Virus record (IMG/VR): IMGVR_UViG_3300009130_000010
Coordinates: 1 to 64,000 of that record
DNA: 64,000 nucleotides
From: a virus
Reading direction: 5' to 3' (one strand)
In this document: one piece after another, positions 47,518-56,593 of the stretch
Position numbering within the stretch: the first letter of the stretch is position 1
Layout: each line of letters opens with the position of its first letter
Translations under genes and position numbers: made by a program
The notes under the pieces: model-generated
Told to the model about the DNA's origin: nothing
Database searches by the model: none
The model's input: only the letters and a program-made list of their open reading frames with translations

Positions 47518-48030
47518 TTAGGCACACAATGTTTTAACCAAATCTGAATTTCTTGTGAAAAATTCCTCAAAATTTGATATGCGCCAGTTAGAGCCTGTAG
47601 TGTTAGACCAGTAGTCTATATAGTTTTTTGATTTTGAATTGTGCCTAGTTTCTATGGCTATGAATTTGCCTACTTGATTGAATTTCATTATTAATATATT
47701 AAAGTCGTCTGGTACTGCTACATCCATTAGTTGAGATATCCACTCTTCTAACATTGGAATCGGTTCAGGTTGTAATAGTCTGTGAAACGGAAATGCTTTA
47801 TAAAATTTACATTCCGCATTTAGTTTAGGAAAACTTTGTCCAGGGACAATGTCTCCTTTGAAGGCTCTTACTTGACCTTCGTGAAGTATTTCCATTCTAG
47901 CTTTATTAGACCCGCCCACATAAGCACCGGAACCAGGAGCTCTTATAAAACTTTCATTGTATAGTCCGGACAAGAATCTTGCGACATCTCGCTCCCAACC
48001 TGATCCTTTTGCTTTTTGTGGGCTTGGCAT
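47518..48030 (-). CDS. Holliday-junction-resolvase-like PD-(D/E)xK nuclease
   Basis: 170 residues. The order KAKGSGWERDVARFLSG, RAPGSGAYVGGSNKAR, FKGDIV and LNAECKFYKA matches Hjc/Hjr-type nucleases: Glu in the first helix, Asp in GDI (about residue 60) and E-x-K in AECK (about 73). It could resolve recombination junctions or trim packaging substrates. Downstream of the small basic gene and in the same direction as gp46/gp47, which fits a role in recombination. No obvious promoter of its own. Confidence 0.78.
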   Translation of the reverse strand: MPSPQKAKGSGWERDVARFLSGLYNESFIRAPGSGAYVGGSNKARMEILHEGQVRAFKGDIVPGQSFPKLNAECKFYKAFPFHRLLQPEPIPMLEEWISQLMDVAVPDDFNILIMKFNQVGKFIAIETRHNSKSKNYIDYWSNTTGSNWRISNFEEFFTRNSDLVKTLCA

Positions 48031-48325: not shown

Positions 48326-48916
48326 CTATTTCTTCGTTTTCTCCCAAACTACCATGTTATGATACTTTTTTTCACCTTCTGGTGTGGTTATACTATGTAC
48401 TTTTTCAATACTAACAACTTTTAAATCAGTCTGTTTTTCCCAACCACCTTCTGTTATCCAATCTTTTGGAGTTATACACATACTACAATATAGTAACCCG
48501 TCGTCAGTTAAACTATCAGCTATATGCTTTGAAGCACTAGCATCAACGTGTCCAAATGTTAGTACGCCAATTGCTGTTAAGCATTTATATTTTTGTGGTA
48601 ATGGTGCTTTAGTTATATCGTGTATCTTAGTAGTTCTATAATTACCTGCCACAAATCTATTAAGCATAGGTTGATTTAAATCGTAACCATCAATTAAGTA
48701 TTTGTGATTTATTAATCCAAGTCCTACTTGACCGTTTCCACAACCAATGTCTCCTACTTCTGTTCCTTCTAGAAAATTATCTATAATCCAATTAGAAGCA
48801 ATAGTATGACATACCCATCCTCGTTCATTTATAACTTCGTCATGATAGTTATCCCAACCATCATACAATTCGCTATTACTTTTTTTATAAATTTCGTCTA
48901 ACCAATAATCAGTCAT
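48326..48916 (-). CDS. SAM-dependent class I methyltransferase
   Basis: 196 residues. Motif I is GDIGCGNGQVGLGL (about residues 55-68), and DGYDLNQPML (about 77-86) supplies the acidic residue for the ribose; IGVLTFGHVD (about 116) fits motif IV. It would methylate a small molecule or macromolecule; the substrate is not visible. It is the last gene of the metabolic cassette and overlaps the nitroreductase stop by eight bases, so the two are probably coupled. Confidence 0.88.
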   Translation of the reverse strand: MTDYWLDEIYKKSNSELYDGWDNYHDEVINERGWVCHTIASNWIIDNFLEGTEVGDIGCGNGQVGLGLINHKYLIDGYDLNQPMLNRFVAGNYRTTKIHDITKAPLPQKYKCLTAIGVLTFGHVDASASKHIADSLTDDGLLYCSMCITPKDWITEGGWEKQTDLKVVSIEKVHSITTPEGEKKYHNMVVWEKTKK

Positions 48917-49598
48917 AATATTTTACCATGTCATTTAGGTTTTCTCTAGCTGTTCGATATTTGTTAATTATGTTTTTAGTATCTTCGTATCCAATACTCA
49001 TACCACACAATACAATTTTTTCTTTATACTCAGGTAATTCTTGTCTTACTATATCAGCATACTCTCCTAATGACCCCTGTGGACAGGTTGCCAGGCCATG
49101 TTCAACAGCTGACAACATAATCGACTGTATAAACATACCATAGTCTACATAAGAACCTTTGCCTAATGCTCTGTCAATAAAAAATAATAACATAACAGGA
49201 GCATCAAACCCTCTATAATTTTTAGCATATAACAAATTTTTACGTTCTGTCATTTCTCTAGTAATACCTAGTTGATTATATAAAGCTAATCCACATTCTT
49301 TTCTTCGTTGCTTATACTCTCCAAACCATTCAGCATCTTTTTCACTAAACTTATCAAATGGATAATACTCGTAATCCATAACAGGTGTTATACCAGAACT
49401 AAATGCTTCTTCTAATTTGTTACATAAATTATTTTTTGACGTACCTGTAAGTACAGCTACTTGCCAAGGTTGATGATTATCACCACTTGGTGCTTGTTTG
49501 GCTTGCTCTAATATTTTGTTTATAGTATCAATAGAAACTTCTTTATTTAAAAAAGCTCTTGTTGACTTACGAGTTGCTAAAGCATCACTAACTATCAT
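48909..49598 (-). CDS. Nitroreductase-family FMN oxidoreductase
   Basis: 229 residues. Family signature: ATRKSTRAFLNKEV with Arg-x-Ser-x-Arg (about residues 8-14), then APSGDNHQPWQVAVL (about 36-50) for FMN binding, then GLATCPQGSL, and a C-terminal SIGYEDTKNIINKYRTAREN. These bind FMN and reduce nitro, quinone or enone-type groups, or oxidise azoline rings. It overlaps the ANL ligase stop by four bases. Partner substrate unknown; context suggests work on the product of the neighbouring ligase or dioxygenase. Confidence 0.92.
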   Translation of the reverse strand: MIVSDALATRKSTRAFLNKEVSIDTINKILEQAKQAPSGDNHQPWQVAVLTGTSKNNLCNKLEEAFSSGITPVMDYEYYPFDKFSEKDAEWFGEYKQRRKECGLALYNQLGITREMTERKNLLYAKNYRGFDAPVMLLFFIDRALGKGSYVDYGMFIQSIMLSAVEHGLATCPQGSLGEYADIVRQELPEYKEKIVLCGMSIGYEDTKNIINKYRTARENLNDMVKYYD

Positions 49599-51010
49599 AC
49601 TTCTGAATAATCCTTTACATTAACCTTAGAAATAATATGAGGAGGAAAACTATTTTTAACAATGGCAGGCAATTTACTTCTTTGAAATTTATTTGGACCA
49701 GAAAAATATAAATGTTCAGTTACATGATATATATCGTGTGGTCGTTTAGCCTTTTGAGCATTATCAGTAAAGTGTTTAGCTACATCATTAGCATTAGCTG
49801 TTCCTGTATATATTAAGTAATGAAGTTCATCTTGTTCGCAACTAGCAACATTTTCAACACCAGGAACTTCGAGTGCCAATGCTTCTACTAATCCTGTATA
49901 AATTTTTATACCACTTTTCATAAAGATAACATCATCAAACACTCTACCAGAATAATACCATGTACCATTTTCATCTCTAAACTTATCACCATCTGTTTGC
50001 CAATCTAGTGTTCCGTACTTGTACCAAAGTACGCCTTCTTTGTCAAGTTTTAACTCCCCGTTATAAAGATGTTTTGTAAATCCATAAAAGTTTTTTATTG
50101 GATCACCTGGTCTATAAACAGCAACTGAATGGCAATCTGCTTCTGTACTTGCCATCATATTGTAAATTGCTTTAAACTTAAATTTCTTTATAATACTTTT
50201 GAGAACTACTTCTGGTGTATGTCCTCCAGAACATTCCCAGTAATCTATAGGCCAATTGAAATCATCAGGACATTCATCAACTATCTTTTTAATAGCATTA
50301 GGATATGATATACAACAATTAGGTTTTGCTTTTACTATCTCCCCAGGTATATTATCTCCCCAATTTAAAAAATGTATACTACCACCTATTAAGTATATTC
50401 TTAACAAGTTATAAGGATTATAAGTAGCAGTAAATCCTGCTGTACAAAGAATTCTTGGTCGTTTATCTTTTGTAAATTCAGGTGCTATAGCAAATAAATG
50501 ATTAGTAGATGCCTGTGCTGTACATCCTAATAATGTCTGCCCATCTACAATAGCTTCTTCATGATCTTCGTAATCCCAAAAGAAAGGATACATTTCAAAA
50601 AACTCTTTAACTGTAGTTCCGCTTGTCATACCTCTATATATTTCTTTAGGATGTAATATAGTAGGTCCTGTTTCAGCTGGATCACTTAACATTGTTATTT
50701 TATTAGAACGTATAATACAAGTTGCTTTACAACCTTTAATCAATCCTTCACGCTCCATCTTAGATTGTCTAGCGTCAGCCTGTGTAGCTGATCCACCGTT
50801 TTTAATACTAGCAAGTATCCATAAGTAATCATCTATTGTAACTTGATCTTCTGCTATTACAAAAACAACGTGTGGTCCTATACCATGCTCTTTAAGTCTT
50901 TTAATTTTAGCATCTAAATTATCGTGTAACTCTCCCCAAGTAATTTGTTCAGTAGAATTACTTAAAAAAATATCATCTTCACTGAGAGGTCCTTGTGTTT
51001 GTTTTAACAT
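49595..51010 (-). CDS. Adenylate-forming (ANL) ligase
   Basis: 471 residues, somewhat short for the family (typically 500-600). Motifs: GMTSGTTVKEF (about residues 127-137) as phosphate loop, YNMMASTEA (283-291) for the A5 region, WQTDGDKFRDENGTWYYSGR (337-356) containing the ATP-binding Asp, and FDDVIFMKSGIKIY (358-371). The C-terminal Lys is likely in SGPNKFQRSKLP. It activates a carboxylate to an acyl-AMP, then thioester or amide. The start has AAGGAATAAT before ATG. One base separates it from the dioxygenase-like gene. Confidence 0.88.
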   Translation of the reverse strand: MLKQTQGPLSEDDIFLSNSTEQITWGELHDNLDAKIKRLKEHGIGPHVVFVIAEDQVTIDDYLWILASIKNGGSATQADARQSKMEREGLIKGCKATCIIRSNKITMLSDPAETGPTILHPKEIYRGMTSGTTVKEFFEMYPFFWDYEDHEEAIVDGQTLLGCTAQASTNHLFAIAPEFTKDKRPRILCTAGFTATYNPYNLLRIYLIGGSIHFLNWGDNIPGEIVKAKPNCCISYPNAIKKIVDECPDDFNWPIDYWECSGGHTPEVVLKSIIKKFKFKAIYNMMASTEADCHSVAVYRPGDPIKNFYGFTKHLYNGELKLDKEGVLWYKYGTLDWQTDGDKFRDENGTWYYSGRVFDDVIFMKSGIKIYTGLVEALALEVPGVENVASCEQDELHYLIYTGTANANDVAKHFTDNAQKAKRPHDIYHVTEHLYFSGPNKFQRSKLPAIVKNSFPPHIISKVNVKDYSEV

Positions 51011-51011
51011 A

Positions 51012-51824
51012 TTATTCCTTAAAAATATTTGTGTAATCTAATGCTACACGCCAAAGTTCTCTACTTTTGTTTACAACAGGTGAACGTCTGTGTATAGTAT
51101 ACAATTGATCCATTAATAATAAATCACCTTTTTTAAATACAAAATGTTTTTGATAAATTGATCTGTCTAATGTTTTTTTATATTTTTCTTTTACAATATC
51201 TACGTTTACTGGCTCACCGTTTTGCCATGCTTTTTCTAACAATGGTGGTTGCCAATATAAAAACTCTTGCCCATCTACAGGATGTTTATTTACTGCTGGC
51301 ATACAGTCATCACCGTCGTGATGAATTGGCATAACGTAATCATCTAAACTTGTATCAACATTTGATTCTTCTTTTGACCCATATATACCATAACTACTAA
51401 AATTGTTTAACTGTATATCAATAGAACGCCAATAGTCTTTTTCTTTTTCAGGTAACTCATTAAAAGCATCTCTATTGTTTAATAAACTAAAAACAGTATC
51501 AGGACATTCTCCTACACAATATAAAGCAATTAGTATTTCTTTAAACTCACCTAAATGATGTATTGTGCCATTGGCGTGCCATTGTAGTTCTGTTTCTCCA
51601 AACAATCCACCTGGCATTACTCTTGCTATGTCTGGATTTTCTTTTGGGTTATAATGAAATTGTCCCATTGTATCGTCGTCTGTATTTCCTATACGTCTAC
51701 AATAGTCAACTAGTTGAGGTTGTGTTAAATTTTGTTCATGATGAAATGTATATCCATCTTTTAATACTTGTTGAATTTCTGATTTTAATTCTGAATCTGT
51801 ATATTCTAATACTTGTACAGTCAT
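51012..51824 (-). CDS. TauD/gamma-butyrobetaine-dioxygenase-like protein with altered metal triad
   Basis: 270 residues from ATG 51824 (AAAGGG before it; an in-frame GTG at 51833 lies inside that site). The fold order matches Fe(II)/2-oxoglutarate TauD-type oxygenases: LQWHANGTIHH (His83), then ALYCVGECPDTVFSLLNNRD, then LMDQLYTIHRRSP (distal His) and RELWRVAL (Arg for 2OG). The canonical H-x-D is H-A-N here (residues 83-85), so the usual Asp ligand is Asn. The protein could still be active with a different reaction or a changed ligand set. Gene context (betaine-type transport) is inferred. Confidence 0.82.
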   Translation of the reverse strand: MTVQVLEYTDSELKSEIQQVLKDGYTFHHEQNLTQPQLVDYCRRIGNTDDDTMGQFHYNPKENPDIARVMPGGLFGETELQWHANGTIHHLGEFKEILIALYCVGECPDTVFSLLNNRDAFNELPEKEKDYWRSIDIQLNNFSSYGIYGSKEESNVDTSLDDYVMPIHHDGDDCMPAVNKHPVDGQEFLYWQPPLLEKAWQNGEPVNVDIVKEKYKKTLDRSIYQKHFVFKKGDLLLMDQLYTIHRRSPVVNKSRELWRVALDYTNIFKE

Positions 51825-51857
51825 TGATAACACCCTTTACTATGCTTTAATTACTTA

Positions 51858-52724
51858 TTATTTCTTCCAACGATCATCACGTTTATTGTATGCTTGAACA
51901 ACTCTATCAATAATAATTGCTAAAGCAACTATTGACAATCCACTTATAACACCTAATCCTAAAAATTGATTTCCAACAGCGTTCATAACTTGTGACCCTA
52001 ACCCTCTAACACCAATCATTGATGCTATTACTACCATTGCCAGTGCCATCATTATTGTTTGGTTAATACCACCAAAAATTGTTGCTCTTGCTAACGGTAA
52101 TTCAACAAGAGCTAAAATATGTTTAGCTCGTAATCCTAATGCTTCTGCTGTTTCTATTAAATCTTTATTAATTTCTCGAATACCGATATTTGTAAATCTA
52201 ATTACTGGTGGCATAGCATAAAAACATATAGCAATTAAGCCAGGGACTTTGCCAAGTCCAAATAACATTATAACAGGAATTAGATATACAAAACTAGGAA
52301 TAGTTTGCATGAAATCAAGCATAGGTAAAATTATAGATTGTGCTTTATCTTTTTTTGCCATTAGTATTCCGAGAGGAATACCAAATGTAACACAAATAAA
52401 TGTAGATACAGAAACTATAGCTAAAGTTCTCATGGTATCATCCCACATACCAACTAAACCTATAGCTATAAAGGCAGTCAATGATCCTAAAATTATTTTC
52501 CAGTTTTTAGTAAGAACCCATATTAATAATCCTACTACTAATAAGAATACATAATATGGCGTTGCTAATAATAATTTTTCAAACCAAATAAGAAAATAGA
52601 GGAGTGGGGAAAGAAAGTCTTGGAAACTTTCTCCCCACGTACTAGCAAATTCTCTAAACGTACTGTCAATAAATTTCTTAATCGCTACTATGTTACTCTT
52701 TTCCAATGATGGAAAATTACTCAT
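51858..52724 (-). CDS. ABC transporter permease of the glycine-betaine/proline (ProW/OpuAB) type
   Basis: 288 residues with about six transmembrane segments (YYVFLLVVGLLIWVL, WKIILGSLTAFIAIGLVGMW, LAIVSVSTFICVTFGIPLGI and later ones). The EAA-type cytoplasmic loop is ETAEALGLRAKHIL with LPLARATIFGG. MPPVIRFTNIGI is typical of the ProW group. It would form the membrane channel for a quaternary-ammonium compound. The gene is five bases from the binding-protein gene. No ATPase subunit is visible in this window, so it would have to borrow a host one or one encoded elsewhere. Confidence 0.93.
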   Translation of the reverse strand: MSNFPSLEKSNIVAIKKFIDSTFREFASTWGESFQDFLSPLLYFLIWFEKLLLATPYYVFLLVVGLLIWVLTKNWKIILGSLTAFIAIGLVGMWDDTMRTLAIVSVSTFICVTFGIPLGILMAKKDKAQSIILPMLDFMQTIPSFVYLIPVIMLFGLGKVPGLIAICFYAMPPVIRFTNIGIREINKDLIETAEALGLRAKHILALVELPLARATIFGGINQTIMMALAMVVIASMIGVRGLGSQVMNAVGNQFLGLGVISGLSIVALAIIIDRVVQAYNKRDDRWKK

Positions 52725-52729
52725 AGCTA

Positions 52730-53755
52730 TTAATCAAGTGTTACGTTCAAGCCTAGCTTTTCAGCCGCCTCCGGCGTTACCCATTTAGACCAAGTTTCTT
52801 TATGTGATTTAAGAAACTCTATAGCAACGTCAGTTGGTGATGCTTGATTATCATTAGAATATATTAATAAAGTGTTTAATACATCACCTGGCATTTGCCT
52901 TTTAGATAGATAAACCATTACATCTGGATGAAGACCCGATGTAACTACTGTGGCAATAATTGTTTCTGGATATGCTGATGGCTTTGGTCCAATACATTCA
53001 TCATCAGGTAATGTTATACACTCCCAATTTTCTTGTCCAGCGAATTCAGTTTCAAAAGGAAGTTTTGACAATCCTAATTTACCTACTAATAATGTTGGTG
53101 ACCAGTAATAACCGAAAAAGTTTTCCTTTTTAGTTACAGCACCAGTCCAAGCGGCATCTAAACCTACACCAGATCCAGGGTTAATAAGTTTCCAGCCTTT
53201 TGCCTCCATATCAAATGCTTCGAATAAATTTTGATGTTGCATTTGACAAGCCCAGCCGTCAGGACAAATAGCAATTCCGCCTTTTGTCGCATCTTCTGGA
53301 TGTGGAAATAGTTCTGGATGTTCAAGTACCTTTTCAAAAGAAGTTAATTCCGGATGTGCTTCTAACACATAATCAGGAACATAAAATCCTTCACCAGCAC
53401 CTTCAATAACTCCTATACTTGCTGTAAGTAATTTACCTTCAGCTACAGCTTCGTCATATCCAGCACCTAAAAATGAAGTCCAAGCTTCACTAAAAATATT
53501 AGGTGACTCTGTGGCTAACATTGACGTAATAGTAGCTTCAGTTCCACCTGGAACTATTTCTACTTTATGTCCATAGCCTATTTTAAGTATTACAGTATCA
53601 ATATGAGCCAATATCGTTCCCGATGGCCAATTGAGTTCTGCTATTTTAATTTCGTCAGCTTTTGCTTGTGCTGTAAATAACCCGGCTGTTGAAACCATAG
53701 ATATAAACAGCATACTGACTATAATTAAGAAACGTTTAATGTGTTTGCTAGTCAT
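52730..53755 (-). CDS. Periplasmic glycine-betaine/proline-type binding protein (ProX/OpuAC family)
   Basis: 341 residues. Signal peptide from HIKRFLIIVSMLFISMVSTA to AKA-DE (about residue 33). The mature protein has the family's Trp-rich ligand box: ELNWPSGTI, EAWTSFLG, GWACQMQHQ, DAAWTG and YYWSPTLL. These aromatic residues usually cage a trimethylammonium group. The ligand could be glycine betaine, choline, carnitine, TMAO or related osmolytes. It begins 11 bases after the gp46 stop with AAAGGAG overlapping that stop, so it is cotranscribed with gp46. Confidence 0.94.
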   Translation of the reverse strand: MTSKHIKRFLIIVSMLFISMVSTAGLFTAQAKADEIKIAELNWPSGTILAHIDTVILKIGYGHKVEIVPGGTEATITSMLATESPNIFSEAWTSFLGAGYDEAVAEGKLLTASIGVIEGAGEGFYVPDYVLEAHPELTSFEKVLEHPELFPHPEDATKGGIAICPDGWACQMQHQNLFEAFDMEAKGWKLINPGSGVGLDAAWTGAVTKKENFFGYYWSPTLLVGKLGLSKLPFETEFAGQENWECITLPDDECIGPKPSAYPETIIATVVTSGLHPDVMVYLSKRQMPGDVLNTLLIYSNDNQASPTDVAIEFLKSHKETWSKWVTPEAAEKLGLNVTLD

Positions 53756-53766
53756 TTCTTTCTCCT

Positions 53767-55530
53767 TTAGTTAACGTTAACGTCATTATTGTAACTGGTA
53801 AAACCGTTTTCTTTAGTAACGGTAAGCACGTTGTTTACTCTACCAGCAAGTTCATCTCTATGTGAGATAAGCCATATGCTTTTCTTTCTTTCTCTTGATA
53901 TCTTTTTCAAAACAGCAAGAGAGCTTTCAACTCCAGAGGTGTCCATGCCTGAGTCAATCAACTCGTCGATAAACAACAAGTTTATAGGTTGGTATAGATT
54001 TTCCCAAACATCGCGGAAAGACCAACTTAATGCTAATATCAATCTATTCCTCTCACCTCTGGATAAGTTATCAAAGTCAAGATCGCGACCTAACTCGGTG
54101 ATCTCAATTGATAAATCATTTTGGAATATCACTTTATGTGGTAATCCAATCTTGTCAAGATAGTATGTTAATCGTTTATTTAAGAATGCTAAATTCTGTT
54201 CAATAATACGTTTACGAACAAAACTATCTTTACTTGTTAGTAACTTGTATAAAAATTCTTGGTGTTCTTTTACGTTATTTAACTGTTCTAATACATCAAA
54301 CGAGATCTCTTGAAGACCAGACTCTTCCATTTCAGTTATTTGTTCATTATAGGTATTTTCTTCTGCTTGTTTATTTGTCAATTGATCTTCAAGAGTTGTT
54401 AACGTACTTTTATGATTGTGTGCTTCTGTGGCACTTTCATAAAAAGTTTCTGGTCGTTTACCAATATCAACTCTTAATAAAATTTGTTCAGCAACTCTAT
54501 TATTTGCATTTTCTAATTCTTTTGTTATATCTTTTTGTTCTTTCTGAAGATTTTTTAATTTTTCTTTATAATCTTTTAAATGTTTAATGTCTTGACCACA
54601 ACTATCACAAGTATGATTTTCAACAAGTTTTAGACTGTCAGCAATTTTTTCTGATTCTTTAATAAGTCTATCTACTGCTCGTTCACTACTAGCTACCTCG
54701 GTCTCTAATAACGATTGTTCGTTTTTAAGAGTCATAAAATCATTTAATTGCTCATGTTGTTTTAATTCAGCATCAATGTCTACATCACCTAAATCAGCAA
54801 TCGCTTTTTCTAATTTTTGTACTTGCTCGTCTTTACTATCTTCCCATAACTTACTTCTACGTTTAAGATTTTCTATTTGTTCTTTAATATGAGCATTTGC
54901 TTGTTCAACACCTTGTATTCTATATTCTTCTTCTTTAGCATCATCTCTATTTTTCTTCATCTGTTCTTTAAGTTTCTCAGATTTTTCACTTAATAAAGTA
55001 ATACCTAATAGTTGCTCAATAATAGCACGTTGGTCATTATTTTTAAGTGCTAAAAAAGGTTCCGTGTAAGTGTTCAGTGCCACAACGTGTTTAAACATTT
55101 CGTGACCCATTTCAAGTAAACGATTTATTTCATGTTGTGTTTCTCTACTATCACCTTGAGCATTATCTTCTGCTTCTTGCTCTTGCTCATCAATATAAAA
55201 TTTTAATAAGTTAGGTCTACGCCCACGTTCAATTTTATACTTCTTATCATTCTTTTCAAATTCTAAACAAACAAGCATATTCTTGGCGTTTGTTTTATTA
55301 ATTAAATTGTCAACTCTAATCTTAGTAAGTGCTTGTCCGTATAAAGCATAACTTAAAGCATTAATGATTGTTGTTTTACCAGTACCATTTCTAGCACCTG
55401 TATCATCACCACCTAAGTCTAAGTTCTCTCCGAGTACAAGTGTTAAATCATCTCTATTGAAATCTATTGCCTGTGTGCTGTTACCCACACTCATAAAGTT
55501 CTTGACTGTAATACTGTTTAAGTTAAACAT
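53767..55530 (-). CDS. 46: Recombination endonuclease subunit gp46 (Rad50-like)
   Basis: 587 residues (T4: 560). Walker A GARNGTGKTT at residues 45-54, long coiled coil interrupted by a zinc-hook CDSCG in the middle, signature LSRGERNRLILALSWSFRDV and Walker B LLFIDELIDSGMD near the C-terminus, then HRDELAGRV. With gp47 it makes the Mre11/Rad50-type complex that processes DNA ends for recombination-dependent replication. Its start overlaps the gp47 stop by one base. Confidence 0.97.
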   Translation of the reverse strand: MFNLNSITVKNFMSVGNSTQAIDFNRDDLTLVLGENLDLGGDDTGARNGTGKTTIINALSYALYGQALTKIRVDNLINKTNAKNMLVCLEFEKNDKKYKIERGRRPNLLKFYIDEQEQEAEDNAQGDSRETQHEINRLLEMGHEMFKHVVALNTYTEPFLALKNNDQRAIIEQLLGITLLSEKSEKLKEQMKKNRDDAKEEEYRIQGVEQANAHIKEQIENLKRRSKLWEDSKDEQVQKLEKAIADLGDVDIDAELKQHEQLNDFMTLKNEQSLLETEVASSERAVDRLIKESEKIADSLKLVENHTCDSCGQDIKHLKDYKEKLKNLQKEQKDITKELENANNRVAEQILLRVDIGKRPETFYESATEAHNHKSTLTTLEDQLTNKQAEENTYNEQITEMEESGLQEISFDVLEQLNNVKEHQEFLYKLLTSKDSFVRKRIIEQNLAFLNKRLTYYLDKIGLPHKVIFQNDLSIEITELGRDLDFDNLSRGERNRLILALSWSFRDVWENLYQPINLLFIDELIDSGMDTSGVESSLAVLKKISRERKKSIWLISHRDELAGRVNNVLTVTKENGFTSYNNDVNVN

Positions 55531-56563: not shown

Positions 56564-56593
56564 ATTATACATTAACAATAATAGCTTTGTCAA
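56564..56593 (-). promoter_or_regulatory. Early sigma-70-type promoter for gp47-gp46 and likely the metabolic cassette
   Basis: Reverse strand: TTGACA (56588-56593), 18-base spacer, TATAAT (56564-56569). Perfect hexamers. No terminator was seen between gp46 and the cassette behind it. Confidence 0.88.

Follow-up and report, generated by a model that had tools for sequence, protein, structure and literature searches.

A phage cargo cassette behind gp46 couples a DmpX-type binding protein and permease to four putative enzymes, with dimethylsulfoniopropionate as a candidate substrate

Dimethylsulfoniopropionate (DMSP) is among the most abundant marine organosulfur compounds and the source of dimethyl sulfide (DMS), and SAR11 bacteria require reduced organosulfur. 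Some phages carry auxiliary genes for nutrient uptake, with the phage giving subunits of an importer and the host the rest; cyanophage pstS is one example. Another is tctA in SUP05 viruses (PMC4164917). In roseobacters and SAR11, DMSP is imported by the ATP-binding cassette (ABC) importer DmpXWV, and the pocket of the binding protein RnDmpX is formed by four tryptophans, Tyr200, Glu113, Thr64, and Ala153 (PMC10030565). The DMSP lyase DddP has an M24 fold (RdDddP, 4B28; RlDddP, 4RZY), with Asp295, Asp297, Asp307, His371, Glu406, and Glu421 as metal ligands and Tyr366 and Asp377 as the proposed catalytic residues (PMC4108388). Here, we analyze a six-gene cassette in bases 1–64000 (the window) of the 102,929-base IMG/VR virus record IMGVR_UViG_3300009130_000010, which encodes a ProX-type binding protein, a ProW-type permease, a TauD-like protein, an ANL ligase, a nitroreductase (NTR), and a methyltransferase (MT). 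Like DmpXWV, it has a binding protein of the DmpX family with an adjacent permease; it differs in having no DmpV ATPase and in lying behind the phage gene gp46. Compared with pstS and tctA, the cassette encodes both a binding protein and a permease, putatively for an onium solute, and links them to a conserved set of enzymes. With about even confidence, we read it as an early-expressed cargo cassette for the uptake and processing of a small, methylated zwitterion of the onium type, with DMSP as the likeliest candidate.

The binding protein, ProX (positions 52730–53755, minus strand), carries a signal peptide and matches OpuAC (E = 9e-39). Its closest solved structure is RnDmpX (PDB 7YLE; E = 7.5e-48 with the single sequence and 1.2e-56 with the profile), which is also the only PDB match to the ProX profile at E ≤ 1e-6. 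The DMSP-pocket residues of DmpX that were compared, W35, T64, W84, E113, W152, A153, Y200, and W202, align with W43, T72, W92, E122, W168, A169, Y216, and W218 (WTWEWAYW) in the window ProX, an identity of 8/8. A sequence-only reading of this DNA had named the aromatic cage of ProX as a check on its proposal, and the cage is intact by alignment to 7YLE. That proposal was uptake of a trimethylammonium compound; an onium-solute pair with a cage, conserved beside enzymes, does stand, but the closest relatives favor the DmpX branch, which binds DMSP, over betaine, carnitine, or trimethylamine N-oxide (TMAO) as such. TMAO would be the weakest substrate option because the pocket is of the type that binds a carboxylate zwitterion. 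By these comparisons, ProX groups with DmpX, which binds DMSP in marine bacteria.

The cellular relatives of ProX in SAR11, roseobacters, and Gammaproteobacteria have the pocket WTWEW(G/N/S)YW, with a single case of WTWDWGYW. These DmpX-like proteins score 335–387 bits, compared with 23–54 bits for other OpuAC paralogues from the same genomes; a comparable cage is present in two of those paralogues, which means that the substrate cannot be read from the cage by itself. Among the viral proteins, the cage, the glutamate, and the tyrosine are kept in all 13 rows of the alignment. Viral ProX forms one clade in the tree (support 100/99; 13 diverged rows), and the cellular lineages form a polytomy that points to no particular donor. 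The long branch of 7YLE in this tree was not trusted.

A second link to DMSP is a gene in a related 27.8-kb record (L014), which bears gp46, gp47, and further phage-type genes. This gene (L014:5353–6573) lies between the ligase and TauD genes, and its protein matches DddP structures at E values of 1e-70 to 1e-65 and prolidases at 2e-17. Its best NCBIfam family is DddP, at 278.5 bits and short of the equivalog cut-off of 600. By alignment it keeps six of the six metal ligands of DddP and both Tyr366 and Asp377, and it is described here as a putative lyase; the window has no such gene.

The surroundings of the cellular ProX and ProW genes (ProXW) also include DMSP genes. In a roseobacter locus (L079, Amylibacter), ProX-ProW-ProV is followed by one small gene and then DddP. 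In 33 of 80 cellular loci, all from Pelagibacteraceae, MTHFR-like and DmdA-like genes stand beside ProXW; the DmdA-like gene has DMSP demethylase as its best NCBIfam match (237 of 410 bits) and 3TFH, which we take to be Pelagibacter DmdA, as its best PDB match. SAR11 loci such as L102 have in addition a divergent operon with BHMT-, DMGDH-, and Rieske-type genes, in many cases with an MT-type gene, and no ProV adjoins. The methyltransferase of this operon is a homologue of the phage methyltransferase (31% identity over 113 residues, E = 2e-10; hhalign probability 97.7%). The SAR11 locus, ProX-ProW-MTHFR-DmdA-like/BHMT-DMGDH-MT-Rieske, thus resembles the phage cassette in ProXW and the methyltransferase, whereas the onium-demethylation genes of SAR11 are absent from the phage and the ligase, the nitroreductase, and the TauD-like protein take their place.

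The permease, ProW (51858–52724, minus strand), matches BPD_transp_1, with ProW/choline permeases as its best matches, and has an EAA-type loop. The families given for the uptake pair in the sequence-only reading are right; what the pair lacks is the ATPase. Outside SAR11, the cellular relatives have ProV directly after ProW, and a complete DmpXWV importer joins DmpV/ProV to the X and W components; in the phage, no ATPase gene lies next to ProX-ProW. The only ABC ATPase above cut-off in the whole record, at 94.7 kb, first resembled the missing ProV and on reading turned out to be SufC. It sits in a cluster of SUF iron-sulfur assembly genes (~92.4–95.9 kb; L156:8907–12445), which contains SufB, a glyoxalase-fold protein, a SufE-like protein, SufC, and a SufBD-core protein, with a ferredoxin-reductase-like gene close by. 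The ProX-bearing viral relatives have no ABC ATPase above cut-off, the near-identical virus described below excepted. Because the virus has no clear ABC ATPase besides SufC, phage ProXW, if functional, must use a host ATPase, and we infer that it does.

The cassette recurs in other viruses. Relatives were found by exact-pattern scans, which catch only part of them, and all counts of recurrence are therefore lower bounds. ProX is present in at least 19 viral loci and the ligase in at least 23; among the 28 records checked, these numbers are 19 and 23, with both genes in 14. The ligases fall into ten lineages (ligase genes grouped at 95% nucleotide identity), eight of which have ProX on the same record. 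A full or near-full six-gene set occurs in about 10 distinct viral lineages, and all six gene types are clustered in six of them (the window, L023–L025, L029–L032, L033, L035, and L036). ProX-ProW stands ahead of TauD-ligase-NTR-MT in some relatives and behind it in others, many sets hold two TauD genes, and in L006 the ligase and NTR genes are separated by a radical SAM gene. Since gene order recurs in independent viral contigs, the arrangement is not due to chance, and the conserved co-occurrence that the sequence-only reading proposed to look for is found. Among 50,697 GenBank phages, ProX and the ligase have no relatives, TauD has a relative in Mosig only, and the ProW matches, at ≤49% identity, come mostly from Firmicutes phage records that lack annotation. 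In that Mosig relative (Pelagibacter phage Mosig EXVC030M, MT647606), a TauD-like gene (33% identity, HxN) is followed by a methyltransferase gene, with other redox and transferase genes near; Mosig, however, has no ProX, no ProW, and no ligase of this family, and its methyltransferase is only 23% identical.

Two cargo sites show how the genes are combined. The first is bordered by gp46, an SbcC-like recombination endonuclease subunit gene upstream of the cassette (53767–55530, minus strand; phrog_77, 1.5e-93), and on the right by a PDDEXK nuclease/RusA-like gene (47518–48030, minus strand), which forms the same border in L012 and L014. It holds ProX-ProW only in L012, ProX-ProW-ligase-DddP-TauD in L014, and ProX-ProW-TauD-ligase-NTR-MT in the window. 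The second site, in another phage lineage, lies between the genes of a 143-residue membrane protein and a DnaB-like helicase, and holds ProX-ProW in L009 and L010, MT-ProX-ProW with one gene before MT in L002, and MT alone in L232, L233, and L235. ProXW and the enzymes come and go at the same sites, singly or jointly, which is evidence for a common purpose, short of proof.

For the ligase, the TauD-like protein, the nitroreductase, and the methyltransferase, the sequences allow no assignment of a reaction. The ligase (49595–51010, minus strand) is a divergent member of the ANL superfamily of adenylating enzymes (AMP-binding, 2e-8) that keeps the motifs TSGTT, STE, TDGD, and GRxxDD and the C-terminal lysine; past TSGTT, its P-loop reads VKEFF where GxPKG is usual. 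These motifs are retained at 60–82% identity between viral lineages. A pattern scan of GTDB gave no relative, and a search with the ligase profile of 385 genomes, drawn from the class to which a SAR11 genome belongs, found nothing beyond generic matches to the C-terminal part. The family appears so far to occur in phages alone and would represent a new enzyme. A structure model of the ligase (pLDDT 45) was too poor to use, and its Foldseek list was set aside.

The TauD-like protein (51012–51833, minus strand; PF02668, 5e-12) has the fold that was claimed for it, as confirmed by a model with pLDDT 85 and Foldseek TM-scores of 0.62–0.74 to TauD-family structures. Its iron motif, however, is H86-A-N88, an HxN in place of HxD; the distal H248 and R262 are conserved, and the full triad is not present. 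An asparagine at this position is expected to weaken or alter iron chemistry. TauD-fold proteins of this kind make up a large family in phages, and nearly all of these relatives have HxN with the distal His and Arg intact; HxD is restricted to second TauD copies and to the type found in L040/L043. Against the same 385 genomes, the TauD profile gave only generic cellular matches of ≤46 bits. In L039 and L044, which are otherwise near-identical to L040–L043, the TauD gene between the ligase and methyltransferase genes is absent, with 129 bases left. The nitroreductase (48909–49598, minus strand; 8e-24) resembles flavin mononucleotide (FMN)-dependent enzymes of the NfnB type (NfnB/3GR3-like). The last gene (48326–48916, minus strand) encodes a class I S-adenosylmethionine (SAM) methyltransferase, with weak matches under the Pfam cut-offs; it is this protein whose homologue adjoins ProXW in SAR11.

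In the proposed mechanism, phage ProX would bind the solute in the periplasm with its four-tryptophan cage, and ProW would replace or supplement the host permease, both running on the host ProV/DmpV ATPase. The ligase may then activate a carboxylate, either that of the solute itself or that of its product, and the TauD-like protein, the nitroreductase, and the methyltransferase may modify this compound further. Transcripts of the host proVWX genes fall in infections by the pelagiphages HTVC022P and HTVC027P, and the latter phage raises dmdABC (PMC12753301). A phage with its own DmpX and DmpW could sustain onium uptake during infection, when the host may express its own importer genes less, and the imported solute could be a source of carbon, reduced sulfur, and methyl groups for that host. 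A larger version, which we advance tentatively, is a modular DMSP pathway of marine phages, in which DmpX/DmpW would work on the host ATPase, a phage-only ligase-dioxygenase-nitroreductase-methyltransferase set would open a DMSP route as yet unknown in bacteria, at least one lineage would have a phage DMSP lyase, and infection would alter DMSP/DMS flux. Should phages indeed supply a lyase and subunits of a DMSP importer, the uptake and cleavage of DMSP in infected cells could proceed on viral terms, and if the DddP homologue of L014 splits DMSP, viruses would enter the ocean sulfur cycle directly. In the open-access literature, we found neither a DMSP importer nor a DMSP lyase described for a phage.

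Several observations weigh against DMSP processing by the cassette. The carboxylate-binding threonine is replaced by isoleucine in 9 of the 13 viral ProX proteins, so that viral substrates may differ; most viral members other than the window ProX have I at the T64 position and S at the A153 position. The DddP homologue occurs in one record only, is 34% identical, and scores under the NCBIfam cut-off. The ligase profile matches no PDB ligase at E ≤ 1e-5, so that no tie to DmdB or to another ligase of solved structure is detectable. In two of the ten ligase lineages, the contigs lack ProXW, and no host is assigned to the virus. Finally, other SAR11 loci pair the same transporter family with gamma-butyrobetaine dioxygenase and carnitine dehydrogenase genes, and this keeps alive the alternative that the same cassette logic serves a quaternary ammonium zwitterion (glycine betaine, gamma-butyrobetaine, or carnitine), with the ligase as an analogue of betaine/carnitine-CoA ligases.

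We consider this alternative unlikely but the strongest of those weighed. The cage suits any onium zwitterion, SAR11 ProXW relatives adjoin BHMT, dimethylglycine dehydrogenase, and GbcA-like Rieske genes, and L103, L110, L123, and L144 have gamma-butyrobetaine dioxygenase together with ProV, L123 having carnitine dehydrogenase as well. The closest solved relative of ProX is, however, specific for DMSP, and DddP occurs once in a viral set and once in a roseobacter locus. Furthermore, the phage TauD-like protein has neither the N-terminal domain of GBBH nor HxD, and the ligase has no specific tie to CaiC.

The sequence-only reading had left room for a second half of the cassette that makes an unrelated small molecule, a suggestion weakened by the shared cargo sites. 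In this case, TauD-ligase-nitroreductase-methyltransferase would be a separate biosynthesis module, for example for an isonitrile- or amide-type product, and ProXW a frequent neighbor; we judge this to be less probable still. In isonitrile clusters, such a TauD-type enzyme works together with an ANL ligase, and the isonitrile-forming SfaA, ScoE, and Rv0097 rank first by Foldseek E value for the TauD-like model, but TauD and AAD-1 are equally close by TM-score (0.70–0.74), HxN replaces HxD, and no carrier protein is found. The module does occur without ProXW (L026, L039–L044), and relatives bear other biosynthesis-like genes, such as those for radical SAM proteins and a NodU-like carbamoyltransferase; against this stand the association with ProXW in 8/10 lineages, the shared cargo slots, and the TctA importers near most sets without ProXW. 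Hitch-hiking host genes without function, or an assembly chimera, are highly improbable: phage cargo sites do gather genes and the TauD metal motif is altered, but the reading frames, signal peptide, and pocket are intact, viral ProX is one diverged clade, the ligase motifs persist at the identities given above, and the same site is occupied in three related viruses.

Of the 28 records, 14 (L006, L013, L015/L035, L018/L021, and L039–L044) have genes for TctA and TctC-like proteins, components of tripartite tricarboxylate transporters, close to the ligase cassette; no record without the ligase has them. TctA was rejected as part of the window system because it is absent from the whole record. 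Dense biosynthesis-like clusters in L013, L026, L035, L036, L037, and L040 encode NodU-like carbamoyltransferase, radical SAM, 230-residue partial ANL, and amidinotransferase-like proteins.

Open reading frames and family searches bear out the six genes, their coordinates, and their families as first read, all on the minus strand and tightly packed. Gaps of 11, 5, and 1 bases separate gp46 from ProX, ProX from ProW, and the TauD gene from the ligase gene, and overlaps of 4 and 8 bases join the ligase to the nitroreductase and the nitroreductase to the methyltransferase. The 33-base gap reported between the permease and dioxygenase-like genes holds for the likely ATG start at 51824, which has the better ribosome site; from the GTG start, the gap is 24 bases. 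The bases ahead of ProX are TTAACTAAAGGAGAAAGAA-ATG, so that its ribosome site abuts the gp46 stop, in agreement with the reported 11-base spacing and ribosome site over that stop.

A sigma-70-type promoter (TTGACA-18-TATAAT; 56564–56593, minus strand) lies 20 bp before gp47 on the cassette strand; it is a pattern match only, to 12/12 consensus bases, and no other site in the 10.3 kb scanned matches all 12. The window has five copies of the late-type motif TATAAATA (24730, 29559, 33312, 42323, and 57537); these late-promoter-like motifs are mostly intergenic and beside structural genes. A pattern scan of the window found none ahead of gp47 and none within the cassette. Together with the consensus promoter, this suggests, on pattern matches only, that the cassette probably rides on the early gp47-gp46 transcript, which gp46 probably shares with it.

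The virus is classed as a T4-like tailed phage by its genes; gp46, gp47, and a late sigma factor gene adjoin the cassette. PADLOC gave no defense-system reading, with a single weak methyltransferase-domain match, and a tRNA scan of the remainder of the genome gave no pointer to the host. The G+C content is 33–35%, and a SAR11-type or other marine bacterium is a plausible host. The terminase is T4-like, with its best identity (52%) to Pseudomonas phages such as PA5oct, and record 3300008740_000351 is a near-identical virus.

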